Position numbers and translations under genes: made by a program
The notes under the pieces: model-generated
The model's input: the letters and a program-made list of their open reading frames with translations, nothing else
Databases searched by the model: none
What the model was told of the DNA's origin: nothing
Assembly (NCBI GenBank): GCA_017616475.1
Contig: JAFZYD010000076.1
Span: 1 to 56,528, forward strand
Reading direction: 5' to 3'
Length of the DNA: 56,528 bases
Origin: Bacteroidales bacterium
GTDB lineage: Bacteria; Bacteroidota; Bacteroidia; Bacteroidales; UBA932
Part shown: in pieces, positions 6,348 through 40,956 of the stretch
How the letters are laid out: every line of letters begins with the position of its first letter
Numbering within the stretch: the first letter of the stretch is position 1

Positions 6348-6366
6348 CACAAACAAAATAAATAGT

Positions 6367-21724: not shown

Positions 21725-23686
21725 ATGAAGAAGACTCTGATTACCATTGCGGTGGTGCTCCTGGCACTGTCCGCACAAGCTAAAGATTACAAAGTAGCAT
21801 CTCCCAACGGAAGAATTAACGTGCTGATTCAGAGCGGTTCTTCGCTCACATGGAGCGTAACCGCAGACGGTGCCCAGTTGATTGCGCCCTCACAAATTGC
21901 CCTCTCCCTTACAGACGGCACTAAGTACGGCCCCGGCGCCAAATTCCGCAAGGCGGTGCGCAGCAGCTGCAACCAAACCCTCCCCGCGCAGAATTTCAAG
22001 CGGGCCGCGGTAAAAGATAACTACAACGAGCTCAAGCTTGTGGCCAAGGATTTCGACCTGGTTTTCCGGGTCTACGACGACGGCACTGCCTACCGCTTCG
22101 TTACCAAGAAGGGCACCGAAATAAAGAGCGAGACCGCCGATTTCAACTTCCCCGGCGACCCTGTCGGCTGGATACCCTACGAGAGGGACGGCGGAACCTT
22201 TGAAGATCAGTTCTTCAATTCATTCGAAAATGTATACTCTAACATCCGCCTTTCTGAATGGAACCCCGCCCGAATGGCGTTTCTGCCCCTCACTATAGAG
22301 ACCGCGGCCGGTCCCAGAGTGTGCATTACCGAAGCCGACCTGCTCAACTACCCCGGTATGTACCTGTCCAATTGCGACGGCGATTCCTGTTTGGAGGCTA
22401 TGTTCGCCGGCTACCCCAAGACCATCGTGCAGGGCGGCCACAATATGCTGCAGGGCGTGGTGACCTCCCGCGAGCCGTACATCTACAAGTGCGACAAGGG
22501 CGAGCCTCTCCCCTGGCGCGTGGTGGTGATTACCGACACCGACAAGCAGCTGGCCGACAACGATTTGGTGTGGCGCCTGGCCATGCCGGCCGAGGGCGAC
22601 TTTTCCTGGGTAAAGCCCGGCAAGGTGGCCTGGGACTGGTGGAACGACTGGAACATAAAGGGTGTGGATTTTGCCTCCGGCATAAACAACGACACCTACA
22701 AATATTACATCGATTTTGCCTCGAAGAACGGCATTGAATACGTAATTCTGGACGAAGGCTGGGCAGTGAACCTGCAGGCCGACCTGATGCAGGTGGTGCC
22801 CGAAATTGACCTGCCTATGCTGAGCCGCTACGCAATTGACCGCGGGGTCAAGTTGGTGCTCTGGGCTGGCTACTGGGCCTTCAACCGCGATATGGAAGGC
22901 GTTTGCAAGCACTACAGCGAGATGGGCATCGCGGGCTGGAAAATTGACTTTATGAACCGCGACGACCAGCCTATGGTGGCCTTCTACGAGCAGGCCGCCC
23001 GCACCGCCGCAAAATATCATCAGTTTGTCGATTTCCACGGCGCGTTCAAACCCGCCGGACTGACCCGCACCTGGCCCAACGTGCTCAATTTCGAGGGCAT
23101 CAACGGGCTTGAGCAACTCAAATGGATGGGCCCCGAATACGACCAGGTGACCTACGATGTTACCGTCCCGTTCACCCGCTATGTTGCCGGCCCTGCGGAC
23201 TACACTCAGGGCGCTATGCGCAACGCCATCAAGGCCAACTACTACCCTTGCGACAACGAGCCTATGAGCCAGGGCACCCGCTGCCGTCAGCTGGCGGAAT
23301 ATATAATATTCGACGCCCCGTTCACAATGCTTTGCGACTCTCCCACAATGTATGAGGCGGAGCCCGAGTGCACCGGCTTCATCGCCTCCGTCCCCACCGT
23401 GTGGGACGAGACCATAGCCCTGGACGGCCGCATAGGCGACTATATTGTGATGGCTCGCCGCAGCGGCGGCAAATGGTATCTGGCCGCAATGACCGACTGG
23501 GACGAGCGCGACATCACCATAAAACTGCCGTTTGACGCTGCCGACGGCGCCGGGGCCACCCTTTGGCGCGACGGTGTAAACGCCCACCGCAACGGACAGG
23601 ACTACCGCAAGGAGACCGTGAAGGTCACCGGCGGCGAACTGAAGGTTCACCTTGCCCCCGGCGGCGGCTGTGTAGTAGTTTTCTAA
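21725..23686 (+). CDS. GH97 glycoside hydrolase, retaining alpha-galactosidase-like
   Basis: The 653-aa exported protein (signal about 1-20, ending ALSAQA) has the three GH97 parts: an N-terminal beta-sandwich (YKVASPNGRINVLI, FRVYDDGTAYRF), the central (beta/alpha)8 barrel, and a C-terminal beta domain. The barrel contains GWKIDFMNRDDQ, whose Asp aligns with the nucleophile of retaining GH97 alpha-galactosidases such as BtGal97b; inverting SusB-type alpha-glucosidases lack it. The acid/base Glu is probably in LNFEGINGLEQLKW. A calcium-binding role for nearby Glu residues is known in the family. The stop codon is 9 nt before glpA, so the gene seems to lead the glp operon. TTG at 21722 is also possible as start, but ATG at 21725 is preferred. 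Confidence 0.9.
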   Translation: MKKTLITIAVVLLALSAQAKDYKVASPNGRINVLIQSGSSLTWSVTADGAQLIAPSQIALSLTDGTKYGPGAKFRKAVRSSCNQTLPAQNFKRAAVKDNYNELKLVAKDFDLVFRVYDDGTAYRFVTKKGTEIKSETADFNFPGDPVGWIPYERDGGTFEDQFFNSFENVYSNIRLSEWNPARMAFLPLTIETAAGPRVCITEADLLNYPGMYLSNCDGDSCLEAMFAGYPKTIVQGGHNMLQGVVTSREPYIYKCDKGEPLPWRVVVITDTDKQLADNDLVWRLAMPAEGDFSWVKPGKVAWDWWNDWNIKGVDFASGINNDTYKYYIDFASKNGIEYVILDEGWAVNLQADLMQVVPEIDLPMLSRYAIDRGVKLVLWAGYWAFNRDMEGVCKHYSEMGIAGWKIDFMNRDDQPMVAFYEQAARTAAKYHQFVDFHGAFKPAGLTRTWPNVLNFEGINGLEQLKWMGPEYDQVTYDVTVPFTRYVAGPADYTQGAMRNAIKANYYPCDNEPMSQGTRCRQLAEYIIFDAPFTMLCDSPTMYEAEPECTGFIASVPTVWDETIALDGRIGDYIVMARRSGGKWYLAAMTDWDERDITIKLPFDAADGAGATLWRDGVNAHRNGQDYRKETVKVTGGELKVHLAPGGGCVVVF

Positions 23687-23695
23687 ATCTGGACA

Positions 23696-25294
23696 ATGAG
23701 TAATCAGGAATTTGACGTAATAATTATTGGCGGCGGCATAACCGGAGCCGGCACTATGCGCGACTGCGCTATGCGCGGCCTAAAGACGCTGCTTATTGAG
23801 CGCAGCGACATCGCCACCGGCGCCACGGGCCGCAACCACGGCCTGCTGCACTCCGGCGCCCGCTATGCGGTGAACGACCCCGAAAGCGCCGAAGAATGCA
23901 TCAAGGAGAATATGATTCTGCGCCGCATCGCCTCGCACTGCGTAGACGAAACAGACGGCCTGTTCATCACCCTCCCGGAAGACGACCTGGCCTATCAGCA
24001 GACATTTGTTGAGGCGTGCCGCAAGGCGGGCATCAGTGCGGAGATAATCGACCCCGAAATGGCCAAGCGGCTGGAGCCGTCTGTCAATCCGGATATTACC
24101 GGGGCGGTGCGCGTGCCGGACGGCAGCGTGGACCCGTTCCGCCTTTGCGCCGCAAATATGCTGGACGGCAAGCTTCACGGCGGGCAGGTGCGCCTGCACA
24201 CCACCGTAACCGGCTTCATAAAGGAAGGCGACACCATACGCGGCGTGCACACCCGCAACTTGGTGACCGGCGAGGAGCGTGACTTTTACGCCCCAGTCAC
24301 GGTTAACGCCGGCGGCATCTGGGGGCACGACATTGCCCAAATGGCGGGCGTCCACGTGGGGATGTACCCCGCAAAAGGAGCGCTGCTGGTGTTCGCCCAC
24401 CGCGTTAACAATATGGTTATAAACCGCTGCCGCAAGCCCTCCAACGCCGATATTCTGGTGCCGGGCGACACAGTGTGCATAATAGGTACCACCTCCACCC
24501 GCATCCCGTTCGAGGAGTGCGACAACGTGGCTGTGACTCCGGACGAAGTGAACCTGCTTATAACCGAGGGGGCCAAGATGACCCCTTCCCTCTCCTCCAC
24601 CCGCATCCTTCGCGCCTACGCTGGCGTGCGACCGCTGGTGAGTGCGGACAACGACCCGACCGGGCGCAACATATCCCGAGGCATAGTGTGTCTGGACCAC
24701 GAGGAGCGCGACGGCCTTAAGGGGTTCATAACCATAACGGGCGGCAAGCTTATGACTTACCGCCTGATGGCGGAGATTGCCACCGACGCCGTGTGCCGCA
24801 AACTGGCCGTCGACAAAAAGTGCCAGACGGCGGAAACGCCTCTGCCCGGCAGCGAGGAGGCGTCTTACGAGGCGGTGGCCCGCAAGATTTGGGAGAAACC
24901 ATCTATGGCCCAGAAGGCCGCCGCAGCCCGTTTGGGCACCCGTGCAAGACACATCCAGACCCGAGACAGGCTGGACGAAGCGCTCATTTGCGAATGCGAA
25001 GAGGTTTCGGTTGGCGAGGTAAAGAATGCCATAGAGATGATGAACGCCTCCACCCTCACCGACCTTCGCCGCCGCACCCGCATAGGTATGGGCACCTGCC
25101 AGGGCGAGTTCTGCGCCTGCCGCGCCGCCGGCCTGCTGGCCGCTTCGCACGGCTGCATAGAGAAAGAACGGGAAGACCTCAAAGACTTCCTGCAGGAGCG
25201 CTGGAAGGGCAATTTCCCCATCGGATGGGGCGACACCCTGCGCGAGGCGGAATACACTCAGTGGGTTTATAAACACGTATTAGGTATCTTATGA
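23696..25294 (+). CDS. glpA: Anaerobic glycerol-3-phosphate dehydrogenase subunit A
   Basis: The 532-aa FAD enzyme opens with the dinucleotide motif VIIIGGGITGAGTMRD and has GRNHGLLHSGARY, VNAGGIWGHDIAQMAGV and ITITGGKLMTYRLMAE, typical of GlpA/GlpD. The C-terminal third carries a BFD-like [2Fe-2S] domain (ICECEEV ... RIGMGTCQGEFC), which marks GlpA of the GlpABC type. It oxidises sn-glycerol 3-phosphate to dihydroxyacetone phosphate, passing electrons through GlpB and GlpC to menaquinone. It overlaps glpB by 4 nt. Confidence 0.95.
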   Translation: MSNQEFDVIIIGGGITGAGTMRDCAMRGLKTLLIERSDIATGATGRNHGLLHSGARYAVNDPESAEECIKENMILRRIASHCVDETDGLFITLPEDDLAYQQTFVEACRKAGISAEIIDPEMAKRLEPSVNPDITGAVRVPDGSVDPFRLCAANMLDGKLHGGQVRLHTTVTGFIKEGDTIRGVHTRNLVTGEERDFYAPVTVNAGGIWGHDIAQMAGVHVGMYPAKGALLVFAHRVNNMVINRCRKPSNADILVPGDTVCIIGTTSTRIPFEECDNVAVTPDEVNLLITEGAKMTPSLSSTRILRAYAGVRPLVSADNDPTGRNISRGIVCLDHEERDGLKGFITITGGKLMTYRLMAEIATDAVCRKLAVDKKCQTAETPLPGSEEASYEAVARKIWEKPSMAQKAAAARLGTRARHIQTRDRLDEALICECEEVSVGEVKNAIEMMNASTLTDLRRRTRIGMGTCQGEFCACRAAGLLAASHGCIEKEREDLKDFLQERWKGNFPIGWGDTLREAEYTQWVYKHVLGIL

Positions 25295-26424
25295 GATTCA
25301 ACACTGTCATAATAGGCGGCGGCCTTGCCGGACTCACCGCGGGCATCACCCTTCAGAAAGCCGGGCGCAGCACCGCCATAATAAGCACAGGCCAGAACGC
25401 GCTATATTTCTTTTCCGGCAGTTTCGAGTCGCTGGAAGAGGCGCCGCAGCGCATCACCGACCTCTTTACCGAGGCGGGCATCGGGCTGCATTACAACCCC
25501 GGCGTGCGCCTTATGCCGATGGGCACATTCCGCAAGGCCGTCCTGTCGCTGGAAGACATCAGCCTTTTCCCGGAACCCAAGATTGGCAACAAAGCGCTTA
25601 TAGTGAGCTTTACCGGCTACCACGATTTCTTCTGTTCGTTCCTTGCGGAGGGGCTGGAGAAGCAAGGGATGCAATGCCGCGTCAAGTTGCTAAACCTGCC
25701 GGAGTTGGAGCAGTTGGAAAAGAGCCCGAGCGAGATGCGTTCGGTGCAGATTGCCCGCACAATGGACCGCATTTGGGAGACCGTCGTGCGCGAAATCCGC
25801 ATCCTTCTGCGCGACGAAGACACGGTTATCCTGCCGCAGGTTTTCGGTCTCAAGGACACATCGGTTCCGAGCCGAATCCGCCAGGGCGTGCCGGCGCAGG
25901 TGGTCTTTACTGGCACCCTGCCCCCGTCGGTGCCGGGCGTGCGCACCCAGATGCTGCTCAAGCGCCGCTACGAGCTGCTGGGCGGCACCTATTTGATGGG
26001 CGACGAAGCCACCGGCGCCCACGTGCATAACAAAGTGGTGCACAGCGTGGTAACCCAAAATTTGGGAAATCATTTCCTGGAGGCGGACAACTTTATTCTG
26101 GCCACCGGCGGCTTTTTCTCCAAGGGGCTCAAGTCCAACCCGTTCGAGATTTCTGAACCGGTGTTTGACCTGGACGTGGAGCAGGCAGAAGACCGCAGCG
26201 ACTGGTACAACCCGGAGTTTATGCGGGAGCAGCCCTATATGAAATATGGCGTGGCAACCGACCCCGCGCTTCACGCACTTTCTGGTGGAGAGCCCTACAA
26301 GAACTTGTTCGCGATAGGTTCTATACTGGGCGAGACCCGGCCCGACCTCGGCACGGGCGGCGGCCTTGCGCTGCGAAGCGCCCTTGCGGCAGTGGACGAA
26401 ATTCTTAAACCTGACGAAGAATGA
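25291..26424 (+). CDS. glpB: Anaerobic glycerol-3-phosphate dehydrogenase subunit B
   Basis: The 377-aa flavoprotein starts with a dinucleotide-binding motif (VIIGGGLAGLTAGITLQKAG) and shows the GlpB-typical ILATGGFFSKGL and FAIGSILGETRPDLGTGGGLAL near the end. It is the FMN/FAD-containing partner of GlpA. Overlaps of 4 nt with both neighbours couple translation of glpA, glpB and glpC. Confidence 0.94.
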   Translation: MRFNTVIIGGGLAGLTAGITLQKAGRSTAIISTGQNALYFFSGSFESLEEAPQRITDLFTEAGIGLHYNPGVRLMPMGTFRKAVLSLEDISLFPEPKIGNKALIVSFTGYHDFFCSFLAEGLEKQGMQCRVKLLNLPELEQLEKSPSEMRSVQIARTMDRIWETVVREIRILLRDEDTVILPQVFGLKDTSVPSRIRQGVPAQVVFTGTLPPSVPGVRTQMLLKRRYELLGGTYLMGDEATGAHVHNKVVHSVVTQNLGNHFLEADNFILATGGFFSKGLKSNPFEISEPVFDLDVEQAEDRSDWYNPEFMREQPYMKYGVATDPALHALSGGEPYKNLFAIGSILGETRPDLGTGGGLALRSALAAVDEILKPDEE

Positions 26425-27641
26425 AACTGCAAGAATATACCCTGAGCACCCACAATTTTGAAGAGTGTATGAAGTGCACGGTGTGCACCGCATACTGCCC
26501 CGTCCTGCAGGTGAATCCTTTGTATCCCGGCCCCAAGCAGGCCGGCCCTGACGGCGAGCGGCTGCGGCTTAAGGACCCGTTTTTCTTCAACTACGCCCTA
26601 AAATATTGTCTCAACTGCAAGCGGTGCGAGGTCGCCTGCCCTTCCGGAGTGAAGGTCGCCGACCTTATCCAATCGGCCCGCATCAAATATGACACCTCCC
26701 CGCCCAAGTGGCGCGACCGCCTGCTGGCTTCCACCGATTTTATGGGAAGCCTGGCGCGGCCGGTGGCCCCCATCGCCAACGCCGTCACGGGCCTTGGGGT
26801 CACCAGGAGTATGATGGACGCTATGTTCAAGATTGACCATCGCCGCATCTTCCCCAAATACAGCCCGTACAGCTTCGAGTTCTGGATGGGCCGGCACGAA
26901 AAGGAGCAGGCCGCCTTTAGCGAGCAGGTCGCCTATTTTCACGGCTGTTATGTCAACTACAATTATCCCCGTCTGGGCAAGGATCTGGTAAAGGTTCTCA
27001 ACGCGCTGGGCGTGGGAGTGCAGCTGTTGGAAAAGGAGAAGTGCTGCGGTATTGCGATGATTACCAACAGAATGATGAAGGAGGCCACTCGCAACGCCAA
27101 CCACAATGTCGGCGCCCTGGCCAAGGCGGTGGACAAGGGGCTTATGGTGATCACAACTTCATCGACTTGCACCCTGACGCTGCGCGACGAATATCCGTCG
27201 CTGCTGGGTGTGGACAATTCGGGGGTGCGGGACTTTGTGATGATGGCCACCAGGTATATTTACGAACGCCTCGAGAAGGGCGCCACGCTGCGGTTCAAGA
27301 GCGATTATCACAAGAAGGTGGCGTATCACACCCCCTGCCATATGGAGAAGCTTGGCTGGGGCATTTTCTCCGAGAAGTTGCTCCGGATGATTCCGGGCGT
27401 GGAGTTCACTATGCTCGACAGCGCCTGCTGCGGCATTGCCGGCACCTACGGTTTCAAGCGGGAGAACTACGAGGCCTCACAGGCAATCGGAGAGAATTTG
27501 TTCACCCAGATACGCGCCGTGGACCCGGAGGTGGTGGCCTGCGATTGCGAAACTTGCAAGTGGCAGATTGAGATGTCCACCGGCTACACAGTTATGAACC
27601 CGATATCTATTTTGGCAGAAGCAATAGAAGATAAACAGTAA
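26421..27641 (+). CDS. glpC: Anaerobic glycerol-3-phosphate dehydrogenase subunit C
   Basis: The 406-aa protein has two N-terminal [4Fe-4S] motifs (CMKCTVCTAYCPV and CLNCKRCEVACPSG) and two CCG domains (KEKCCGIAM and DSACCGIAGTYGF), the layout of GlpC. It anchors the GlpAB flavoproteins at the membrane and passes electrons to the quinone pool. It is followed 6 nt later by glpT. Confidence 0.94.
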   Translation: MKLQEYTLSTHNFEECMKCTVCTAYCPVLQVNPLYPGPKQAGPDGERLRLKDPFFFNYALKYCLNCKRCEVACPSGVKVADLIQSARIKYDTSPPKWRDRLLASTDFMGSLARPVAPIANAVTGLGVTRSMMDAMFKIDHRRIFPKYSPYSFEFWMGRHEKEQAAFSEQVAYFHGCYVNYNYPRLGKDLVKVLNALGVGVQLLEKEKCCGIAMITNRMMKEATRNANHNVGALAKAVDKGLMVITTSSTCTLTLRDEYPSLLGVDNSGVRDFVMMATRYIYERLEKGATLRFKSDYHKKVAYHTPCHMEKLGWGIFSEKLLRMIPGVEFTMLDSACCGIAGTYGFKRENYEASQAIGENLFTQIRAVDPEVVACDCETCKWQIEMSTGYTVMNPISILAEAIEDKQ

Positions 27642-27647
27642 TAAGAT

Positions 27648-29027
27648 ATGCTCAAATTTCTCAAACAGCCCGCATACAAACCGGCCGAGACCGGCCCTGC
27701 TGCGGATGCAAAATATAAACGGTTGCGCTGGCAGGTTTTCCTTGGCGCCTTTATAGGCTATGCCGGTTTTTATCTGGTGCGCAAGAACCTGTCTATGGCC
27801 ATCCCGGCAATGGCGCCGCTCGGTTTCGAAAAGACCGAACTGGGCTTTGTGCTGGGTCTCAACGCCGCCGCTTACGCCCTTTCAAAGTTCTTGATGGGCA
27901 GCGTTTCCGACCGGTCTAACGCACGTGTTTTCTTGCCTCTGGGTCTGATACTTACGGCCATTTCTATGTGCTTTATGATTGTTCCCATCCAGTGGATCGG
28001 GGCGGAGCACAAGACGTGGGCCATTGTTGTGATGGGCGTGCTCAATGCGCTGGTCGGGTGGTTCAACGGTATGGGCTGGCCTCCGTGCGGGCGGGTAATG
28101 ACACATTGGTTCTCGCCGGGCGAGCGTGGCACAATGATGAGCATTTGGAATTGCGCCCACAACGTGGGCGGCGCGCTGGTGGGTCCTATGGCCACCTACG
28201 GTGCCGCGTGGTTCGGCAGTTGGTTCTACGGCAGCCACAGCGAGCTTTATTTCCTTATCGGAACGTTCGCTTTCCCGGCCGCGGTAGCTCTGTTCATCGC
28301 GCTGCTGGCCTACATTCTGCTGCGCGACACGCCGCAGTCCTGCGGGTTGCTATCGGTTGAGGCCTGGAGAAACGACTATCCAAAGAATTACTCCGAGAAA
28401 CACGAGACTACCCTCAGCACCAAGGAGATTCTGTTCAATCACGTGCTTAACAACAAGTTTTTGTGGTTCATTGCTTTGGCTAACGCGTTCGTGTATATGG
28501 TGCGCTACGGTTGCCTGGACTGGGCGCCAACCATTCTCACGGAGAAGGGCATAGACCTCAAGAGCGCAGGCTGGGCATATTTCGCCTACGAGTTCGCCGC
28601 CATTCCCGGCACGCTGCTTTGCGGCTGGCTCTCCGACAAACTGTTCCACGGCCGCCGCGCGCTGCCCACTATGCTCTTTATGGCGCTGGTGCTGGTGTTC
28701 GTGGTGCTCTACTGGCTCTTTATAGACAACCTCACCGTGGTGATTATCAGCTTGATAGGCATCGGCTTCTTTATCTACGGCCCGGTTATGCTTATTGGCG
28801 TGCAGGCGCTTGACCTAGCCCCCAAGAACGCCGCCGGCACCGCCGCAGGTCTCACTGGCTTCTTCGGCTATTTCCTGGGCACCTTCATCCTCGCCAATAC
28901 CATAATCGGCCTGGTGGCCCAACACGCCGGCTGGAGTTGGACCTTTATCTTGTTGATTGCCGCCTGCCTGCTAGCCATCTTCTTTATGGGGTTGACCCTC
29001 CGCGAAGAGCGCAAACCCGCCGAGTAG
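27648..29027 (+). CDS. glpT: Glycerol-3-phosphate transporter (MFS, organophosphate:phosphate antiporter)
   Basis: The 459-aa protein has twelve membrane helices and the organophosphate antiporter signature: RWQVFLGAFIGYAGFYLVRKN with the substrate Arg, FNGMGWPPCGRVMTHWF, and MSIWNCAHNVGGAL. These features are typical of GlpT/UhpT. It imports glycerol 3-phosphate against phosphate. Being in the same operon as glpABC favours GlpT over UhpT. The operon ends at a perfect inverted repeat 36 nt downstream. Confidence 0.93.
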   Translation: MLKFLKQPAYKPAETGPAADAKYKRLRWQVFLGAFIGYAGFYLVRKNLSMAIPAMAPLGFEKTELGFVLGLNAAAYALSKFLMGSVSDRSNARVFLPLGLILTAISMCFMIVPIQWIGAEHKTWAIVVMGVLNALVGWFNGMGWPPCGRVMTHWFSPGERGTMMSIWNCAHNVGGALVGPMATYGAAWFGSWFYGSHSELYFLIGTFAFPAAVALFIALLAYILLRDTPQSCGLLSVEAWRNDYPKNYSEKHETTLSTKEILFNHVLNNKFLWFIALANAFVYMVRYGCLDWAPTILTEKGIDLKSAGWAYFAYEFAAIPGTLLCGWLSDKLFHGRRALPTMLFMALVLVFVVLYWLFIDNLTVVIISLIGIGFFIYGPVMLIGVQALDLAPKNAAGTAAGLTGFFGYFLGTFILANTIIGLVAQHAGWSWTFILLIAACLLAIFFMGLTLREERKPAE

Positions 29028-29062
29028 CCCCGTGGCACTCAACTGTCTGGCGTTCACCAGAT

Positions 29063-29106
29063 TACAATATGTCCCTTGCGTAAAAATACGCAAGGGACAT
29101 ATTGTA
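29063..29106. terminator. Perfect 20-bp inverted repeat between the convergent glp units
   Basis: The arm tacaatatgtcccttgcgta (29063-29082) is followed by aaaa and its exact complement (29087-29106). It lies 36 nt after glpT and 44 nt before the glpF stop, so it probably terminates both units. The stem is unusually long and perfect, and it lacks a T run on either side. It could equally be an operator or recombination site. Confidence 0.6.
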
Positions 29107-29150
29107 TCTCGCTGATAGTCAGGAATGTATCTGCCACGCAGAAAGGTATC

Positions 29151-29891
29151 CTAGAACACCAGCAGGAAGAGGCCTGCTGCCAAAGCGCAGCCGACCATAG
29201 GGCCCACGACTGGAACCCAGCTGTACCACCAGCCGGAGTCGCGCTTTCCGGCGATGGGCAGCAGGGCGTGGGCGCAGCGCGGCGAGAGGTCGCGGGCGGG
29301 GTTGAGGGCGTAACCGGTGGTGCCGCCGAGCGACATACCGATGGACATAATGAGGCAGGTTACGGGCCAGGAGCCGAGGGCGCCTGTTCCGAGCGCCACG
29401 CCGCCCATAGAGAAGGCATTGCCGTTGGTGCCCAGCGCCAGAATCACGAACACCAGCAGGCAGGTGGCGATAACCTCGCAGAGGAAGTTGCGCCAGCCGT
29501 TCTTTATGGCGGGCATAGTGCAGAAGGTGCCCAGCATTGTGTCGGGCTCCTCTGCGGTAGCTTTGTAATGGTCTTTATAGAACAGCCACACCAGCACGGC
29601 GCCAAAGAAGCCGCCGAGCATCTGGGCGATTATGTAGCCCAGCACCAGCGACCATTCGAACTTGCCGGCGATGGCCAGGCCTACTGTCACTGCGGGATTG
29701 AGGTGAGCGCCCGACACCGGACCGGCTATAAGCACGCCCATCATAACGGCCAGGCCCCAGCCGAGGGCGATTACCACCCAGCCGGCACCTTTGGCCTTGG
29801 AATGATTCAGGGAGCAGGCGGCGCATACACCGTCGCCCAAGAGTACCAGCACCAGAGTGCCTATGAATTCGAAGATGAATTTGGGATCCAT
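29151..29891 (-). CDS. glpF: Glycerol uptake facilitator (aquaglyceroporin)
   Basis: The 246-aa MIP-family protein has six membrane helices and both NPA half-helices (SGAHLNPAVTVG and GYALNPARDLSPR). The Asp after the second NPA box and the length are GlpF-like rather than aquaporin Z-like. It admits glycerol passively, trapped by the glycerol kinase encoded 66 nt upstream. The C-terminal segment GWWYSWVPVVGPMVGCALA is standard. Confidence 0.94.
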   Translation of the reverse strand: MDPKFIFEFIGTLVLVLLGDGVCAACSLNHSKAKGAGWVVIALGWGLAVMMGVLIAGPVSGAHLNPAVTVGLAIAGKFEWSLVLGYIIAQMLGGFFGAVLVWLFYKDHYKATAEEPDTMLGTFCTMPAIKNGWRNFLCEVIATCLLVFVILALGTNGNAFSMGGVALGTGALGSWPVTCLIMSIGMSLGGTTGYALNPARDLSPRCAHALLPIAGKRDSGWWYSWVPVVGPMVGCALAAGLFLLVF

Positions 29892-29957
29892 ATAATGATT
29901 TGTTTTTAGATTCCTCGACTACGATCGGAATGACATCGGGAGCAGTCGTGTTTACAT

Positions 29958-31442
<1,485 letters not shown>

Positions 31443-31445
31443 TGT

Positions 31446-32423
31446 TTATTTCTTTTTCATCAGACCGTGAACACGGATAAGGAAGTCCTGCACGCGGGCC
31501 TTGTACTCCTCCGGATATTTCTGGAAAGAATTGGCGTGCACCGCGCCTGGAGCCACCCAGTACTCTTTGTATCCCTGCTTCTTTGCAGCAAAGTTTCTCC
31601 AAAGGTGGTCGATGGGCACAAAATCGTCTGCATCGCCGTGGATGAAATACATAGGTATTGTGCACTTCTCGAGCTGCTTTTCTGCAGATGCCTCCCAGAA
31701 ACCCCAGCCGTGACGCTTCTTGGTGACCAGACTTGCGCTCTGAAGCACATCCGGCGGAATGAAAGCGAAACTCTGCTTGCGGTTGTTGTTGAACTGGGTC
31801 ACTACGGAAGAATAGCCGCAGTCCTCAACCACACAGCGGACATACTCCGGCAGCGGGTCGCCGCTGGCCATCATAACGGTGGCAGCGCCCATAGAAACGC
31901 CGTGGAGCACCATAAAATCGTCGTTGAAGATATTGTGGGCCACTTCTATCCATTTTTCCACGTCAAAGCGGTCGTTCCAACCCATCTGCACGTGGTCGCC
32001 CTCCGAATAGCCGTGATACTGCAGGTCGGGGAACAGCACGTTGTAGTTGAAATCGTCCCGGTACATACGCACCAGGTAGAGGAACACGTAATGGTTGTCG
32101 CCATAGCCGTGTACCACTATTGCGGTGCCTTTGGCCTTTGCAGGATCGGCGGCGGGCACATAGCAGGCGTGCACCTTGAAGTTACGGAAACCTACGATGG
32201 TTGTGTCCTTGAGGATGCCCTCCGCCTTGAGGTCGTCATACCATTTGGTACTGCCGGGCAGCAGGGAGTCGGCTTTGTGGCGGCAGCGCTCAATGTCGTC
32301 GATGCCGTGCGGCTGCGGCTGCAGCGCGTAGCCGCTCATAAACTTACCAGCCATACAACTGGTAAGGGTAACGGTCGCCAATGCCAGGGCGATGAAGCGA
32401 ATAACTTTTCTCATAACCGACAT
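31446..32423 (-). CDS. Alpha/beta-hydrolase lipoprotein (possible lipase or acyl esterase)
   Basis: The 325-aa protein has a lipoprotein signal (FIALALATVTLTSC) and the alpha/beta-hydrolase fold: oxyanion segment IVVHGYGDN, nucleophile elbow LHGVSMGAAT (G-x-S-x-G), the acid region HGDADDFVP and the late His in PGAVHANSF. An insert between strand 6 and the acid (FIPPDVLQSASLVTKKRHGWG) could be a lid. The start overlaps the stop of the barrel gene upstream by 1 nt (ATG at 32423, or ATG 9 nt later). Between an outer-membrane barrel and glycerol kinase genes, release of glycerol and fatty acid from an ester substrate is an attractive guess. Confidence 0.82.
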   Translation of the reverse strand: MSVMRKVIRFIALALATVTLTSCMAGKFMSGYALQPQPHGIDDIERCRHKADSLLPGSTKWYDDLKAEGILKDTTIVGFRNFKVHACYVPAADPAKAKGTAIVVHGYGDNHYVFLYLVRMYRDDFNYNVLFPDLQYHGYSEGDHVQMGWNDRFDVEKWIEVAHNIFNDDFMVLHGVSMGAATVMMASGDPLPEYVRCVVEDCGYSSVVTQFNNNRKQSFAFIPPDVLQSASLVTKKRHGWGFWEASAEKQLEKCTIPMYFIHGDADDFVPIDHLWRNFAAKKQGYKEYWVAPGAVHANSFQKYPEEYKARVQDFLIRVHGLMKKK

Positions 32424-33802
32424 TAGAACTGATAATTAATACCGATGCCGATCCAGAGGCCTGCATCCATTCCCTCGGTGAAGCACTTTGCAAAGTCGGC
32501 GGAAACAATGAAGTTCTGATTCATCGCAATCTTGAGGCCGGCGCCGCCGCTGTAAACAAGGGTCTTAACCTTGGATGCGTCGTAAATAGGATCGGTGGTT
32601 CCGGTGAGGAGGTTGAATGCGGGGTCGTAAATCTTTCCCTCATTATCGGCAATGCGGGCAAGAGCGTCTGCCTTGTAAGGCTTGGTGATGATACCGGCGT
32701 CAAAGAACGGATTCACTGCGATATAGAAATACTGCTTGGCAACGGTGAACTTCACCAGCTTGATGCGCAGTTCGGTGTTGGCCCATGCCATACCTTCTGC
32801 CAGGACACGGTTCTCGCGCAGACCGCGTATGGTGTTGGAGGATCCGAAGCCCTCGGATATCATATTACGCTGGACCAGCAGAGGGTTGTTCTGGATCATT
32901 GCCAGAGGGGTTTCACCCAAGATTGTGTGCTGCCAGGCCAGGCGGTATGCGAATACGGGATTGCCGGCAGGGATGGGAACGGGAATGCTGATGTACTGAC
33001 GGAAATACGCGCAGGCCTTCAGATAGCGCTGATCCAGGACATTTCCGTTAAGGTAGGCTTCGGCCCAGATGCCTCTGTTAGGAGCAGCTTCGATGTCACG
33101 GGTGTCGTAAACCACGCCGGCATTGAGTTCCAGCGCCATACTTCCATCCTTCTCTTCCTCGGAAATCACTCCATTTCTGGAGAGGAAGTTGTACAGGGTG
33201 GCATCGGTGTTATAATACTGCTTGTTACCGTCGACTTCCACACCGACATCCTTCATCGGGCCAAGTATCCAGTTCCAGAAGTTCACGCCGGCAGCCCAGT
33301 TCAGGTTGTCGGTGATACGGCCCTGGAAATTGGCGAGGATGCGGAGCATCTCGCGGCTCATTCCGTAGTAGTTTACGTTATCTTTGGTGAGAGGAACGTA
33401 TATCTCCCTGTTTCCCCACACATCATAGTTCTGCGTTGCAGCAGCGCCGTTAAAGCCCCACATACTGTACAGAGGGTCAGTCATATAGGTAACGGATGCA
33501 TTAACGCGCATGTTGGGAATCAAATACTTGGAGTCATATGCCAGATACAGGCGCATACGGTGGCTGTGGGTGAAATACGAGCCTTCCCAACTGATCTTGT
33601 GGAGGGGATCGGGATAGGTGCTGCCGTCACCATAGTAATAAACATCGCCAAAGGCGCCGGCCTGGAATCCATTGTCAACAGAATAAGTTGCGGTAGGGAG
33701 CAAACCGAAGCTCCAACCCTTCTTGATCTCTTTTTCCTCTTCCTGCGCAAATGCAGAGAAAGAAAGGGCAAGAATCAAAGTTACAGTCAGAATTTTTTTC
33801 AT
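32423..33802 (-). CDS. POTRA-less Omp85-type outer-membrane barrel (copy 1)
   Basis: The 459-aa protein has a signal peptide (about 1-19, ending SFSAFAQ) and then alternating beta strands ending GIGINYQF, the usual terminal Phe of outer-membrane barrels. FGSSNTIRGLRENRVLAEG corresponds to the conserved loop-6 region of the Omp85 (surface antigen D15) barrel, with IRGL in place of VRGF/Y. No POTRA domain fits between signal and barrel, so it is a stand-alone barrel. A clear paralogue lies directly upstream. A role in lipid or protein translocation is inferred from the family. Confidence 0.8.
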   Translation of the reverse strand: MKKILTVTLILALSFSAFAQEEEKEIKKGWSFGLLPTATYSVDNGFQAGAFGDVYYYGDGSTYPDPLHKISWEGSYFTHSHRMRLYLAYDSKYLIPNMRVNASVTYMTDPLYSMWGFNGAAATQNYDVWGNREIYVPLTKDNVNYYGMSREMLRILANFQGRITDNLNWAAGVNFWNWILGPMKDVGVEVDGNKQYYNTDATLYNFLSRNGVISEEEKDGSMALELNAGVVYDTRDIEAAPNRGIWAEAYLNGNVLDQRYLKACAYFRQYISIPVPIPAGNPVFAYRLAWQHTILGETPLAMIQNNPLLVQRNMISEGFGSSNTIRGLRENRVLAEGMAWANTELRIKLVKFTVAKQYFYIAVNPFFDAGIITKPYKADALARIADNEGKIYDPAFNLLTGTTDPIYDASKVKTLVYSGGAGLKIAMNQNFIVSADFAKCFTEGMDAGLWIGIGINYQF

Positions 33803-33835
33803 TATGTTTTTAGTTAAAAATTTTAGTCGTTCCTA

Positions 33836-33843
33836 CAAATCTA
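33836..33843 (-). promoter_or_regulatory. Internal -7 box before barrel copy 1
   Basis: tagatttg (TAnnTTTG, minus strand) lies 33 nt before the ATG in the only gap (63 nt) of an otherwise tightly packed run. Barrel copy 1, the hydrolase, glpK and glpF could therefore be expressed independently of the upstream genes. Confidence 0.5.
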
Positions 33844-33865
33844 CAAAAAATCTTTTTGATTTCCG

Positions 33866-35158
33866 CTAGAAAATGTAGTTAAGTGCGATATAAAGGGCGC
33901 TGTCACCGTCGGTTTTCAGGAACGGCTTTGCCCACTCGGCAGAGATAATGAAGTTGGTGTTCATCACCAGTTTGATGCCGGCGCCGGCGCTGCAGTGCAG
34001 TTTGAGAGCTTCGGCCTGCAGGTCGGAGACGCTACGGCCATAGAAGCGGGACAGTTCCTCGCCCTTATAGAGGCGGGTGACCATACCGGCGTCGAACAGC
34101 GGATTGGTGGCCAGATACCAATTCTGGCCAATTAACTTGAAGTCGAACAACTTTATGCGGAGTTCGGAATTCATCCAAGCGTAGCTGTCACCCACCAGCC
34201 GCTGGGCCAGCAGGCCGCGCACGGTGTTTATGCCGCCCAGGCCGTCCGTGCAGGTCTGACGCAGGAACAGGGTGCTGATGTTCTGCATACTGTAGAACGG
34301 CGCCTCTCCCGCTATAACCCCCTGGTATGCAAGATGATAAGCAAAAACCATCCTATCAGGCCAAAGGGAGATGTAGTGGCGCAGGTGCGCTGCCAGGCGG
34401 AGGTAATCTTGATTTGAACCCGAGTAAAAATAATATGGGGATAATCTATAAAGATCCGGAGATCCTATCAGATAGGTTTCCATCCAAAGACCGCTGTTAG
34501 GTGCAGATTCGTTATCCCGGGTGTCATATACCAGGCCGGCCTTAACCTCAACACGGTGTCCACCATATTCTTCCCTTGGCCGAAAAACGCCGGCTGAACG
34601 CATCTGGTGATATAATGTATTTTCGGCATCATAGGCATCCATCTTAATGTCATCAATACCATAATACCAGTAGCTTAAGCCCCCCACCCAATTGAGGTGC
34701 GGCAGTATGGGCCCCTGGAAATCGGCCAGGATGCGCACCATAGAGCGCTGGTAGGCGTAACGGGCGGTGCGGGTCTCCTTATTGGCATCCAGCGACTTGT
34801 CGTAAGGCTCCAGGCCGTTCAGACCGTAGAAAAGGAACATAGGGTCGTACTGGTAGCTTGCGGAGAAGGTTGTGCGGATGCCCGGAATAAGATAGCGCGA
34901 ATCGAACTGACCGTGAAGCAGAGTCTGGCCGCCCGTGTACCGCGACGCTTCCACGTACATACGCTGGCGGTATTCAGGATAGATGCTGCCGTAGTTGAAA
35001 ATGTCGGCGCAGACTCCATACTGGAACCCGAGGTCGGAATTGTAGCTCACACACGGCAGGATGCCGATGTTCCAACCTTCTACCTTGTCGTCTTCGCCGG
35101 CAAAAGCGGCGGTGCACAGCGCAAACAGCGCTATGATTGCTGCGAAAAGTCTTTTCAT
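33866..35158 (-). CDS. POTRA-less Omp85-type outer-membrane barrel (copy 2)
   Basis: The 430-aa paralogue of the downstream barrel shares its layout: signal peptide (ending TAAFAG), WNIGILPCVSYNSDLGFQYG near the start, YDTRDNESAPNSGLWMETYL in the middle, and the loop-6-like GGINTVRGLLAQRLVGDSYAW, with a C-terminal Phe (ALYIALNYIF). It overlaps the stop of the GtrA gene by 1 nt. The two copies are well diverged, so each may have its own substrate or they may act as a pair. Confidence 0.8.
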   Translation of the reverse strand: MKRLFAAIIALFALCTAAFAGEDDKVEGWNIGILPCVSYNSDLGFQYGVCADIFNYGSIYPEYRQRMYVEASRYTGGQTLLHGQFDSRYLIPGIRTTFSASYQYDPMFLFYGLNGLEPYDKSLDANKETRTARYAYQRSMVRILADFQGPILPHLNWVGGLSYWYYGIDDIKMDAYDAENTLYHQMRSAGVFRPREEYGGHRVEVKAGLVYDTRDNESAPNSGLWMETYLIGSPDLYRLSPYYFYSGSNQDYLRLAAHLRHYISLWPDRMVFAYHLAYQGVIAGEAPFYSMQNISTLFLRQTCTDGLGGINTVRGLLAQRLVGDSYAWMNSELRIKLFDFKLIGQNWYLATNPLFDAGMVTRLYKGEELSRFYGRSVSDLQAEALKLHCSAGAGIKLVMNTNFIISAEWAKPFLKTDGDSALYIALNYIF

Positions 35159-35601
35159 TATCTGTTGGTTTCTTCTGTCGCGGCCTTAGCCTTGGCCGGC
35201 TCGCGGTTATCTACCTTACTGCCGTAAACCACGTATCTCTGGAACAGGAATTCGGTGACAAGGTTCAGGAACATACAAATGAACAGCACCAGATATTCGT
35301 TCCAATGGAGCGTCTCCGAAAGGTAGTCGCCGCCCCAGGAACTCAGCGGGGTAAACACCGCGTAATAGCCTATCACTTTGAGCATTGCGATAGGGACATT
35401 GGCGGTGCTTTTGAAGGTGAACCGGCGGTTCAGGGTGAAATTCCAGACCACCGACAGGGTCAATGCTATAAGGTAGCACGGCCAGTAGCGCCAGCCGGTG
35501 AACTCGTTCAGAAGGGCAAAAGAGATGGTCTGTATAAGCCCCGCGCTCATCGAGAACAGGAGGAACTTGATGGCGCGCCAGGCTTCCTTATTGATTTTCA
35601 T
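35158..35601 (-). CDS. GtrA-family membrane protein
   Basis: The 147-aa protein has four membrane helices and the GtrA signature (FLLFSMSAGLIQTISFALL, then NFTLNRRFTF between helices 2 and 3). GtrA proteins help move lipid-linked sugars across the inner membrane or form part of glycan-modification systems. The ATG at 35601 overlaps the 3' end of the acyl-CoA ligase gene by 14 nt, while the longer frame from 35646 has no support. No glycosyltransferase gene is adjacent, which is unusual for this family. Confidence 0.88.
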   Translation of the reverse strand: MKINKEAWRAIKFLLFSMSAGLIQTISFALLNEFTGWRYWPCYLIALTLSVVWNFTLNRRFTFKSTANVPIAMLKVIGYYAVFTPLSSWGGDYLSETLHWNEYLVLFICMFLNLVTEFLFQRYVVYGSKVDNREPAKAKAATEETNR

Positions 35602-37309
35602 TGGCTCTCTCCTCCTCTTCCAGTTTAGTGTATGCCACCTTGCCAACCAGCGTAGTGGGGAGCGAATCGCGCACCTCTATCTCGCTGGGCATAGCATATT
35701 TGGCGATGTTGCGGCGGCAGTGGGCAAGTATGCTCTCACGCAGTTCCTCGCTATCCTCATAGCCGGGACGCAGCACCAGGAACGCCTTTACGCGATGCAT
35801 CTTGTAGGGGTCGGGCACGCCTATTACGCAGCTGCGCTGAACGGCCGGATGACCCTCCAGAATGTTCTCTATCTGGGAAGGATACACATTGTAGCCGCTG
35901 GTCACAATCATTCGTTTGATGCGCTGGCGGAAGTATATGAAGCCTTCTGCGTCCATCTCGCCCAGGTCGCCGGTGTGCAGCCAGGTATGGCCGTCTTCGT
36001 GCACCCGCATCGTTTCGGCATTCTCCTTCTCGTGGTTTATATAGCCCAGCATCATAGACGGGCCGGTGAGGCAAATTTCACCCTCTTCGCCATAAGGCAC
36101 CTCGTCGCAGGTTCCGGGCTTGCAAATCTTGTAATAAGTATCGGGGTAAGGTATTCCGATGCTCCCCTCCTTCTCTTTGTTATAAGGGGTCAGGCAGCTG
36201 GCCGTGACGCACTCGGTGGTGCCGTAGCCTTCGCGCACCTGCACATTTGCATTGTGCTCCGCCAGGAACTTGTCAAACTTTTTCTTGAGCTCTATGGTGA
36301 GCGAGTCGCCGCCGGAGAAAACGCCGCGCAGGCAGCTCAAATCGGCACCGTCCAGATATTTGTTGCGGGTAATCGCCTCGAACAGCGTGGGTACACCCGC
36401 AATCACGTTGGGGCGGGTCTTCTTAATGAGGTTGGCGTAGCTTTTCACATTGAAGCGGGGCACCAGTATGGAAGTGCCGCCCACCACCATCATAGTATGT
36501 ATACAAACGCCCAGGCCAAAGCCATGAAAAACCGGCATAGCCGCCAGCATCTTGGCGTGATGAACCTCAAAATTGGCCATAGCGCCGGTCTGCTGTCCTA
36601 AAGCGTTGAAATTCAAATCGGAAAGCATGATGCCCTTGGTGGTGCCGGTCGTGCCGCCGGAGAAGAGCACCACCGCCTCGGTGCGGTAGTCCTTGGCAGC
36701 GACATAGCCCTCCTTGACGCTGTCGGCGCCCTTAAGCATATCTTTCCATAGGATGACGTTGCCCTCCGTGCGAATCTTGGGGAACTTGCTCTCCGTGAGG
36801 AGCTTCTGTCCTAAAGAGAGAGGGAACGGGAGCTCTTCCGATACGCGGGTAATTACAAGCTTGGAGATGGGGCGCAGCTTCTGGACCTCAAGGAATTTTG
36901 CATAAAACTGATCCAGCGTAATGGCTATTTCGCAGGATGCCTCGTTCATAAAGAAGGCTATTTCTGCCTCTGCGGAGAGCGGATGCACCATAGAGGCCAC
37001 CGCCCCGATGCGGTTGAGGCCGTACAGGCAGTAGATGGCCTGCGGCACGTTGGGAAGGCATACCAGCACGCGCTGTCCGGCGCGAATGCCCAACGCGTAG
37101 AATGCGCGGGCCGTTTTGTCCAAGTTCTCTGCAAGCGATTTGTAAGAGATCCTACGCCCCATAAATGTCATAGCCGGGAAACCGCCTTCTCGGGAGGCAG
37201 TATCCAGCACCGTTTCTGACATTGTTTTTTCGAGATAATCAAGATGTGCAGGCACCTCTCCGTAGCTGTTGAGCCAGGGAGTTGCTATGTTGTCTAAGAT
37301 ATATTTCAT
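35588..37309 (-). CDS. AMP-forming acyl-CoA ligase (FadD-like)
   Basis: The 573-aa ANL-family enzyme has VVLFSGGTTGTTKGIMLSD (P-loop), VREGYGTTECVTA (A5), TWLHTGDLGEMDAEGF (A7) and the C-terminal lysine region TTLVGKVAYTKL (A10). Family pattern and length suit a medium- or long-chain fatty acyl-CoA synthetase: fatty acid + ATP + CoA to acyl-CoA + AMP + PPi. It is co-directional and 10 nt from the acyltransferase-like gene upstream and overlaps gtrA downstream. An acyl-AMP ligase for envelope modification is an alternative. Confidence 0.9.
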   Translation of the reverse strand: MKYILDNIATPWLNSYGEVPAHLDYLEKTMSETVLDTASREGGFPAMTFMGRRISYKSLAENLDKTARAFYALGIRAGQRVLVCLPNVPQAIYCLYGLNRIGAVASMVHPLSAEAEIAFFMNEASCEIAITLDQFYAKFLEVQKLRPISKLVITRVSEELPFPLSLGQKLLTESKFPKIRTEGNVILWKDMLKGADSVKEGYVAAKDYRTEAVVLFSGGTTGTTKGIMLSDLNFNALGQQTGAMANFEVHHAKMLAAMPVFHGFGLGVCIHTMMVVGGTSILVPRFNVKSYANLIKKTRPNVIAGVPTLFEAITRNKYLDGADLSCLRGVFSGGDSLTIELKKKFDKFLAEHNANVQVREGYGTTECVTASCLTPYNKEKEGSIGIPYPDTYYKICKPGTCDEVPYGEEGEICLTGPSMMLGYINHEKENAETMRVHEDGHTWLHTGDLGEMDAEGFIYFRQRIKRMIVTSGYNVYPSQIENILEGHPAVQRSCVIGVPDPYKMHRVKAFLVLRPGYEDSEELRESILAHCRRNIAKYAMPSEIEVRDSLPTTLVGKVAYTKLEEEERANENQ

Positions 37310-37319
37310 TGGTAAAGGT

Positions 37320-38213
37320 TTAGTCTAATTCTACAGGTGTGGCTGCGTCCAGGTCAAGGAGTTCGGGATGGGCAAAGAGCTGGCGCATTACCTTGATTGT
37401 CTGTGCAAAGTAATAGCCGTCTGCAATGCGCTCGTCTACCGTCAGACCCAGTTTGATTGTGTTACGCAGCTCATATGTGCCGTCTTCGTGCCAGAACGGG
37501 CGGAGTTTCTTCTCGCTGATGACCATAAAGAATGATATATTTCCCCAGTCAAACAGATGGTGATAGTCTGCATGGAGCTTTATGCTGCCCAGATTAGTCA
37601 GATATGCGCTCGAAAAGCAGGGATCGTCCTTGGCCAGAGATTTGGGATAGTGGCCGTAATACTCAAGTTTGTTAAGCGTCCAGGCTACCAGCTTGTAGAT
37701 TGGTCTCGGGAGAACCTGCAGAATATTCATTGCGTTTGTGATACCCACAACCTTGTCTTCCTTTCTCACCTTTGTGACAAATTGCTGCACATAGTCGTGT
37801 ACCTGCTCGATGGGCGCGCCGCCTTCGGGATCGAGGACAAACTTTGCAATCGCCTCTTCCGCCTCGTCGTTGAACTGACGCTTTACATTGAAAGCTACTA
37901 CGATTTTCTTGCGCTCATAATACCGGTGGCCGGCTATAAAATAGTTCATCTTGGGGCGCAGCAGGAATGTTTTTGCCGTAACGGCAGTGATTACGTGGAA
38001 CCACGTGTATTTGAATTCGGGATTTGCGGCGTTTTTCTTTTCGAGATACTTGTCAACCTCCGTGAGATCTATCACCTCGCCCATCACCGCCTCGTTCTTG
38101 GTCCTGGGGCCCATGATGTACGGCATCAGCACATGCAGCGAATCAAGTCCGGACACATAGTATGCGTCGTATCGGTCCCGCCAGTTCCTCTTACGGGTTT
38201 TTGAATCTTTCAT
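37320..38213 (-). CDS. CAT/E2-like acyltransferase-fold protein lacking the catalytic histidine
   Basis: The 297-aa protein resembles the catalytic domain of 2-oxoacid dehydrogenase E2 enzymes and chloramphenicol acetyltransferase: FKYTWFHVITAVTAKTFLLRPKMNYF at the start and TIKLGLTVDERIADGYYFAQTIKVM at the end. The second stretch corresponds to the HxxxDG active-site motif (usual form DHRVVDG), but the His position holds Glu261 (DERIADG). No lipoyl domain is present. It may bind acyl-CoA without transferring, or use another residue. It is the first gene of the run towards glpF and sits 10 nt before the acyl-CoA ligase. Confidence 0.75.
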   Translation of the reverse strand: MKDSKTRKRNWRDRYDAYYVSGLDSLHVLMPYIMGPRTKNEAVMGEVIDLTEVDKYLEKKNAANPEFKYTWFHVITAVTAKTFLLRPKMNYFIAGHRYYERKKIVVAFNVKRQFNDEAEEAIAKFVLDPEGGAPIEQVHDYVQQFVTKVRKEDKVVGITNAMNILQVLPRPIYKLVAWTLNKLEYYGHYPKSLAKDDPCFSSAYLTNLGSIKLHADYHHLFDWGNISFFMVISEKKLRPFWHEDGTYELRNTIKLGLTVDERIADGYYFAQTIKVMRQLFAHPELLDLDAATPVELD

Positions 38214-38288: not shown

Positions 38289-38314
38289 AAAGGCGGTCGC
38301 AGTGGACCGCCTTT
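38289..38314 (-). terminator. Terminator of the nucleobase salvage operon
   Basis: aaaggcggtc / gaccgccttt (10-bp stem, 6-nt loop) lies 24 nt after the permease stop. On the minus strand it is followed by a run of T. Confidence 0.85.
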
Positions 38315-39660: not shown

Positions 39661-39677
39661 AATCGATATGTTTTAGG

Positions 39678-40394: not shown

Positions 40395-40422
40395 AGCTAT
40401 TAGGTTAAAAAAATGTTGTTTA

Positions 40423-40956
40423 TCAATTCTCGCTCAACTGTAGTAAGGATGTCACGGGCACGCCGTCCGGCAGCGGGTTGGTGCGCGGCACGTCTGTGAT
40501 GTCAATAATAAAGTTCACGAACACCGCCTTGGGGTGGAACTTTTTAACAAGCGAAATGGCGGCCGAGGCAGTGCCGCCGGTCGCCAGTATATCGTCGTGT
40601 ACAAGAACAATATCGTCGGGAGTTATTGCATCCGTATGAATCTCTATCATATCGGTGCCGTACTCCTTGGAATAGGTTTCCCGAATGGTGTCGGCTGGCA
40701 GTTTGCCCGGCTTGCGCACGGGGACGAATCCCGCCCCGAGCCGGTGGGCCACCGCCGCGGCAGATATAAACCCGCGCGACTCTATGCCGGCCACCTTGGT
40801 AATGCCCTTGTCTTTATATAATTCGCAAATGGCGTCCACAATCTCTTTCATACACTCCTTGTCTTTGAACAGGGTGGTCACATCAAAGAACATTATCCCT
40901 TTCACAGGATAATCGGGCACCACGCGAAGGTTTTTTATGAGCAGGTCCTTATTCAT
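40423..40956 (-). CDS. apt: Adenine phosphoribosyltransferase
   Basis: The 177-aa enzyme has the type I PRTase signature VLVHDDILATGGTASAAISL (PRPP loop) plus GIESRGFISAAAVAHRLGAGFVP and VRKPGKLP, all standard for Apt. It converts adenine and PRPP to AMP. It overlaps uraA by 8 nt and is followed after 28 nt by the DUF5020 gene. Confidence 0.95.
   Translation of the reverse strand: MNKDLLIKNLRVVPDYPVKGIMFFDVTTLFKDKECMKEIVDAICELYKDKGITKVAGIESRGFISAAAVAHRLGAGFVPVRKPGKLPADTIRETYSKEYGTDMIEIHTDAITPDDIVLVHDDILATGGTASAAISLVKKFHPKAVFVNFIIDITDVPRTNPLPDGVPVTSLLQLSEN

Follow-up and report, generated by a model that had tools for sequence, protein, structure and literature searches.

A putative glycerolipid and glycerophosphodiester scavenging locus in two convergent operons of a Bacteroidales bacterium

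What brings an alpha-galactosidase, a lipoprotein hydrolase, outer-membrane barrels, an acyl-CoA ligase and genes for glycerol and glycerol-3-phosphate (G3P) together in two convergent operons? They occupy positions 21725..38213 of a 56,528-nt stretch of DNA (contig JAFZYD010000076.1, assembly GCA_017616475.1) of a Bacteroidales bacterium from the UBA932 lineage, and the whole stretch is called the window here. A sequence-only reading had joined these genes into one chain for the use of glycerolipids or galactosylglycerol. Comparison with related genomes leads us to an answer that we hold with moderate confidence, namely that the two operons are one locus for scavenging glycerolipids and glycerophosphodiesters. 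Its core is real and is found in three genera: the lipoprotein hydrolase (abh), an Omp85-type barrel, glp genes and often a glycerophosphodiesterase (GDPD). The alpha-galactosidase is lineage-specific, and the ligase, together with an E2-like protein encoded beside it, is an independent module that is joined to the locus in one subclade.

The comparison draws on 26 genomes of the window's genus and 398 of its family. Subclades within the genus were defined by GlpK identity: subclade A holds 12 genomes including the window's (the other 11 at 89-92%), and subclade B holds 8 (77-78% in the 7 in which GlpK was found, with G327 placed by abh and GH27), while the remaining 6 match neither subclade or do not have the genes. 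A further 40 abh neighbourhoods were fetched, 37 of them outside the genus, in a non-random selection that spreads genera and identities. For the ligase and E2-like gene, the 80 loci kept are the best of 291 confirmed matches.

The hydrolase, the barrels and the glp genes

Among the 398 family genomes, abh was found in 114 and GlpT in 93, with both in 76 (Fisher p 5e-36, uncorrected for relatedness and assuming that both searches drew the same 398 genomes). The two genes lie within 12 kb of each other in 34 of these 76, which belong to three genera (15 in g1, 10 in g146 and 9 in g2); by our estimate for a 2.2-Mb genome, likewise uncorrected for relatedness, random placement would give this proximity in roughly 1% of genomes. 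Two arrangements recur, one with abh-glpK-glpF convergent to glpT and the other with abh divergent from glpA. Outside the window's genus, glp genes lie within 12 kb of abh in 12 of the 37 fetched neighbourhoods, and 10 of those 12 loci also have an Omp85-type barrel within the same distance, so the earlier view that hydrolase and barrels belong with the glp genes is upheld. In a tree of abh, subclade B forms one clade (100/99), subclade A is split in two, and genera g2 and g146 are mixed; the link between abh and the glp genes has therefore outlived rearrangement, and perhaps transfer between genera.

In the window, all the genes proposed from the letters alone were found at their expected positions and strands, and coordinates and profiles confirm the content, order, overlaps and gaps of both operons:

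21725..23686, plus strand: GH97 retaining alpha-galactosidase (NF053844, 973.5 bits, cut-off 800)
23696..25294, plus strand: glpA, anaerobic glycerol-3-phosphate dehydrogenase subunit A (TIGR03377, 774.9 bits, cut-off 552.8)
25291..26424, plus strand: glpB (TIGR03378, 320.5 bits, cut-off 174.15)
26421..27641, plus strand: glpC (TIGR03379, 583.7 bits, cut-off 279.9)
27648..29027, plus strand: glpT-like glycerol-3-phosphate/phosphate antiporter (TIGR00712, 559 bits, below the cut-off of 632.55)
29063..29106, no strand assigned: perfect 20-bp hairpin between the converging operons, with no T run (sequence and fold, -34.9 kcal/mol for a 60-nt stretch)
29151..29891, minus strand: glpF, MIP-family glycerol channel (PF00230, E 2.8e-43)
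29958..31442, minus strand: glpK, glycerol kinase (TIGR01311, 742 bits, cut-off 590)
31446..32423, minus strand: abh, lipoprotein alpha/beta-hydrolase, predicted esterase/lipase (Pfam; lipobox LTSC by eye)
32423..33802, minus strand: omp2, small Omp85-family outer-membrane barrel (NF047779, 230.3 bits, cut-off 200)
33866..35158, minus strand: omp1, second small Omp85-family barrel (NF047779, 259.4 bits, cut-off 200)
35158..35601, minus strand: gtrA, GtrA/DPMS-like membrane protein (PF04138; its ATG start overlaps acl by 14 nt)
35588..37309, minus strand: acl, AMP-forming acyl-CoA ligase (PF00501/PF13193; best NCBIfam PRK05605, 366 bits, below the cut-off of 766)
37320..38213, minus strand: E2-like stand-alone acyltransferase-fold protein (PF00198, E 4e-6, its sole Pfam match)
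38289..38314, minus strand: terminator-like hairpin with 10 Watson-Crick pairs and six terminal T (sequence and fold, -17.9 kcal/mol)

On the plus strand, GH97 and glpA are separated by 9 nt, glpA/glpB and glpB/glpC overlap by 4 nt each, and a 6-nt gap precedes glpT; the minus-strand spacings from the E2-like gene to glpF are 10, -14, -1, 63, -1, 3 and 66 nt. This gene order largely recurs in other genomes, so the arrangement exceeds chance. The three adjacent glpABC genes each score above their NCBIfam equivalog cut-offs. The GlpT-like protein aligns over nearly its whole length with E. coli GlpT (1pw4) and retains, with their near neighbours, the Arg, Lys, His and Arg that we take to form the substrate site. 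In a search of the host's own assembly (1.67 Mb, 109 contigs, 83% complete), glpF is the sole MIP match. The best profiles for acl suggest a ligase of the long-chain type. No SusC/SusD pair was found by Pfam among the 13 locus genes, and by that criterion the locus is not a polysaccharide utilisation locus (PUL).

Both hairpins were read directly from the sequence and not from the promoter and terminator scans, which stayed near chance for sigma-70 promoters (15 against 9.9 +/- 3.1) and for terminators (17 against 17.4 +/- 5.4). The perfect hairpin is a possible terminator common to the two converging operons. The other, which is not among the consensus-scan matches, falls where the upstream purine genes give way to the E2-like gene; with hairpins on either side, the minus operon likely runs from the E2-like gene to glpF. 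The purine cluster (window 38338-42304) comprises two Xan_ur_permease-family transporters, a DUF5020 protein and an adenine phosphoribosyltransferase. Farther away in the window, a protein with weak GH101 and BACON matches (6307-8208) lies near a stretch of lower GC content (46-48% in window 1-6000, against 52-61% elsewhere).

The hydrolase is a predicted esterase or lipase with a Ser-Asp-His triad: S177, D266 and H296 are invariant in an alignment of 38 sequences, and the fold of its model (pLDDT 70.5) matches the P. furiosus esterase Pf2001 and monoglyceride lipases. Two g2 genomes (L170, L174) and five named Bacteroidales metagenome-assembled genomes (MAGs; L036, L038, L040, L041, L052) have abh beside the pair of E2-like gene and ligase rather than beside glp genes, which fits, without proving, a hydrolase that frees a fatty acid and a glycerol part.

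A GDPD gene stands between glpC and glpT in 8 of the 12 abh-glp loci outside the genus and, inside it, in G339, and the four proteins examined from such loci look like lipoproteins. In subclade B, GDPD adjoins glpT in 6 of the 7 genomes that can be judged. The window's genome has three GDPD matches elsewhere. The company of GDPD and GlpT points to breakdown of glycerolipids and glycerophosphodiesters and implies phosphate-linked glycerol.

Parts that differ between lineages

Subclade A has abh adjoining glpK in all 12 genomes (within 41 nt by match bounds) and GH97 5' of glpA on the same strand in 11, directly and at 9-17 nt in 7 of them. An S41 protease gene intervenes in G237, G315 and G351, and an S41 gene plus a PfkB-family gene in G270, where GH97 is in two pieces; in G259, the twelfth genome, GH97-S41 ends one contig and glpA starts another. 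Of the glp genes that come next, the contig with GH97 in G351 and G248 includes glpA alone or glpA with a part of glpB. The S41 gene 3' of GH97, seen in five relatives (L130, L131, L134, L142, L144), is tricorn-like. A close E2-like gene was found in 8 of the 12 genomes. In G259 other genes fill the region from omp2 to the purine genes, with what look by eye like polysaccharide-export genes at the expected site of the E2-like gene and ligase, and similar genes (SLBB, Wzz-like) lie between acl and omp1 in G237 (the regions are L129:12457-16310 and L141:10274-13837).

Subclade B has glpK near abh in none of the 7 genomes with GlpK; glpK and glpF are elsewhere. A GH27 gene lies 3' of abh, within 35 nt, in all 8 genomes (L148, L154, L157, L160, L162, L202, L203, L204), and its best solved matches are alpha-galactosidases; the G161 copy has an in-frame stop. 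The distance from abh to glpT is at most 3 kb in 7 of the 8 (glpT is cut by the contig end in G333), and in G327 the contig ends. Five genomes (G161, G290, G299, G280, G348) have abh-GH27 convergent to glpT-GDPD. Beside glpT there is a DUF3089 lipoprotein gene in 4 loci or GDPD in 5. The glpABC genes of G161 are more distant (glpA 645 bits versus 1065-1174 in subclade A) and lie away from glpT, and about 5 kb from them (L151:1314-10493) is a distant E2-like copy with 35% identity, the DER motif kept and no ligase adjacent; among the loci seen, no other outside subclade A has an E2-like gene close to glp genes. Members of both subclades have an acyltransferase-3 family gene flanking the locus (L127:3824-4930, L146:8704-9828, L148:6799-7887, L154, L202:7196-8299), which was not found in the window.

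The GH97 protein has a signal peptide by eye and no lipobox, and is likely periplasmic. Its closest solved relatives are 3a24 and 5e1q, which we take to be structures of BT1871 of B. thetaiotaomicron; the Asp that is replaced by Gly in 5e1q is retained here as D408, probably the nucleophile. Within 20 kb of glpT, GH97 was found in 9 of the 60 genomes with both, among the matches listed; all nine are in subclade A, and in most of the other genomes the two genes are on different contigs. Neither GH97 nor GH27 lies within 12 kb of abh in the 12 abh-glp loci outside the genus. The alpha-galactosidase varies with lineage, being GH97 in subclade A and GH27 in its sister subclade B, and the proposed link between GH97 and glpA holds in subclade A (11 of 12) but not beyond it. 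Both families also occur elsewhere in many genomes, and side by side, away from glpT, in G381 and G446. In G417 (g2, L207), about 0.9 kb separates GH97 and abh and holds a MIP-family gene on the opposite strand, and no further glp-like gene was found in the 19 kb fetched. Since two different families stand tight beside abh or glpA in sister subclades, there is reason to think the alpha-galactosidase more than a passenger, and the two hint at a common target, alpha-galactose on a glycerol compound.

The E2-like gene is directly upstream of the ligase in 63 of the 80 best relatives and is lacking there in 17. The pair occurs (L032-L111) in Bacteroidales, Clostridia and a Sphaerochaetaceae MAG. 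When the open reading frames (ORFs) of the same 80 loci were clustered, no third same-strand family reached more than 11 of them, and two further clusters were shadow ORFs antisense to acl and the E2-like gene. No ligase lies near abh and the glp genes in the 12 loci outside the genus; among the loci seen, the window's subclade is the only one in which the pair joins them. The fatty-acid activation once placed in the chain thus drops out of the shared locus and belongs to a cross-phylum pair of its own, and the expected conservation of gene order holds for the glp genes with hydrolase and barrel but not for the ligase. A single conserved super-locus was likewise rejected: the E2-like/ligase pair, abh-omp, glpABC(-GDPD)-T, glpK-F and the alpha-galactosidase are each distributed separately. 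An order-level ligase search (E <= 1e-80) returned only the window's own genome of 149, which we do not read as absence because a family-level search (E <= 1e-40) gave 72 of 199, most of them distant ligases. The four best named ligase matches (86-90% identity) are Bacteroidales MAGs of yak rumen, water buffalo omasum, sheep reticulum and goat omasum.

The AlphaFold model of the E2-like protein (pLDDT 87.9) matches E2 cores in Foldseek (best E 3.7e-14), and no lipoyl domain match was found in the protein. Measured against the E2 enzymes of 2-oxo acid dehydrogenases, it has the core fold but not the catalytic His of DHRxxDG, which in the window reads DERIADG. Glu stands at the canonical His, aligned to that of 3mae, in 64 of 64 family sequences (D-E-R-x-x-D-G), and 7 of 7 distant copies in the genus have the DER motif. 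The family also has an invariant Tyr-His-His elsewhere in the protein. Activity is still conceivable, because for E. coli E2o it is disputed whether this His serves as acid-base catalyst (PMC5986005).

Mechanism and rival explanations

In the scavenging locus that we prefer, substrate or product would cross the outer membrane through the Omp85-type barrels, and abh, predicted to be periplasmic and with its triad present, would remove acyl or other esters. The lipoprotein GDPD, in the many relatives that encode it beside glpT, would cut the glycerophosphodiester to G3P; for the window, a GDPD encoded elsewhere in the genome would have to make this cut. GlpT would import G3P, GlpF and GlpK would take up glycerol and route it through phosphorylation, and GlpABC would oxidise G3P to dihydroxyacetone phosphate with quinone reduction, all of them roles established for these families. 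In the window's subclade, the operon's own ligase may activate the freed fatty acid and the E2-like protein take part in its use, and GH97, the lineage-specific part, is predicted to take alpha-galactose off a decorated glycerol compound.

Several findings weigh against this. Of the 76 genomes with abh and glpT, 42 show no proximity of the two, with 40 having them on different contigs (37 of these in g2) and 2 about 16 kb apart, and 25 of the 37 neighbourhoods outside the genus have none of the glp genes up to 12 kb from abh, in some because the contig ends. No GDPD stands at the glpC-glpT junction in 9 of the 10 subclade-A loci with the junction visible, the window's included. GlpT scores under its curated cut-off, and the E2-like/ligase pair is independent of glp genes across phyla. 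Wherever subclade A has the E2-like gene, in 8 genomes, the purine genes are next to it, so synteny within one subclade proves little. Finally, BT1871, to which we tied GH97 above as its closest characterised relative, serves raffinose-family sugars: according to PMC11501099, this GH97 alpha-galactosidase is required for growth on melibiose and for full use of raffinose.

The role of BT1871 speaks for a rival that is possible but doubtful, in which the alpha-galactosidase serves raffinose-family sugars as an unrelated passenger and only hydrolase, barrels and glp genes cooperate. The copies of GH97 and GH27 away from glpT, adjacent to each other in two genomes, agree with it, as does the S41 gene 3' of GH97 in five subclade-A genomes (with a PfkB-family gene in G270), by which unrelated genes are seen to enter the run. 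Against it, two families stand no more than 35 nt from abh or glpA in the two sister subclades (8 of 8 and 7 of 12 genomes); G417, with its 0.9 kb between GH97 and abh, is a third case, but a single one among many genomes could be chance. Use of the plant galactolipid digalactosyldiacylglycerol (DGDG) or of floridoside, with GH97 removing alpha-galactose, is the least likely of the alternatives, even though GH97 is an alpha-galactosidase by profile 9 nt 5' of glpA and the closest named relatives come from ruminant forestomachs, which leaf galactolipids reach. DGDG would also need a beta-galactosidase, and none was found by Pfam among the locus genes, the rest of the genome not having been searched for one; it gives glycerol and not G3P, whereas GlpT and GDPD, the partners that recur, point to glycerol phosphate. 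That the 9 of 60 genomes with GH97 near glpT, among the matches listed, are all of subclade A also counts against this reading. DGDG was therefore rejected as the leading reading, and the galactolipid substrate of the sequence-only reading is not supported.

Alpha-galactosylated poly(glycerol phosphate) would fit better than plant galactolipid, and leads to an explanation that we consider unlikely, though less so than galactolipid: the alpha-galactosidase and esterase would strip the poly(glycerol phosphate) teichoic acid of Gram-positive neighbours, and GDPD would exolytically free G3P for GlpT and GlpABC. GlpQ-type enzymes require a C2 hydroxyl free of sugar and D-alanine (PMC7086022), and this need would explain an alpha-glycosidase and an esterase beside GDPD and GlpT. 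Both alpha-galactosidase families are found in that company, as abh-GH27 convergent to glpT-GDPD in the five subclade-B genomes and as GH97-glpABC-GDPD-glpT in G339, and the position of glpK and glpF elsewhere in subclade B favours a phosphate-bearing backbone over free glycerol. But this is something we infer, for a locus with no teichoic-acid-binding or endo-acting enzyme and no SusC/SusD, and for a window operon with no GDPD; the 12 loci outside the genus, with neither GH97 nor GH27 near abh, suggest that the core does not need one, and in PMC7086022 GlpQ was active on wall teichoic acid and not on intact lipoteichoic acid. That rumen Bacteroidales have a dedicated locus for eating alpha-galactosylated poly(glycerol phosphate), for which two lineages used different families, GH97 and GH27, is slightly less probable again. 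We give a similarly low standing to a minus operon that builds lipid, its ligase, E2-like protein, GtrA and barrels making or exporting an acylated envelope compound, with glpK and glpF captured by chance. The E2-like/ligase pair does occur, sometimes with GtrA (L042, L095), away from any nearby glp gene in Bacteroidales and Clostridia, and the polysaccharide-export genes of G237 lie between acl and omp1; set against these is the proximity of abh to glp genes in three genera, which outside the window's subclade comes without the pair in the fetched loci.

Known systems and wider meaning

The enterobacterial glp genes are glpABC, glpTQ and glpFK. Equivalogs of GlpA, GlpB and GlpC, a relative of GlpT, GlpF and GlpK are all present in the window, and relatives have GDPD beside glpT as in glpTQ; unlike the enterobacterial genes, these stand in one place, where a lipoprotein hydrolase and barrels share the two convergent operons, and no GDPD is among them in the window. 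The GH97 alpha-galactosidase resembles BT1871, which belongs to a PUL (PUL24) with a SusC-like transporter (PMC11501099), whereas GH97 of the window precedes glpABC in a locus with no SusC/SusD. The GDPD of relatives is of the same family as the B. subtilis teichoicase GlpQ and would likewise release G3P for the Glp route, although the window locus has no such gene; GlpQ halts at glycosylated or alanylated units (PMC7086022), whereas in the relatives here an alpha-galactosidase and a predicted esterase come in addition. The E2-like protein shares fold and D-x-R-x-x-D-G motif with the E2 cores of 2-oxo acid dehydrogenases and differs from them in having no lipoyl domain match, Glu for His, and an acyl-CoA ligase as partner rather than E1/E3.

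A search of open-licence papers by titles and abstract openings gave, among the matches listed, no description of this locus, of a Bacteroidales teichoic-acid locus or of the E2-like family. With its Glu for His, the E2-like family lends itself to the study of a question still debated for E2 enzymes, the function of this His (PMC5986005). The comparison ties a lipoprotein hydrolase named only 'alpha/beta hydrolase' in the sources consulted, together with small Omp85 barrels, to glycerol-phosphate metabolism in a gut Bacteroidales family, and offers a concrete test of lipid or teichoic-acid breakdown in bacteria known mainly for their use of polysaccharides.

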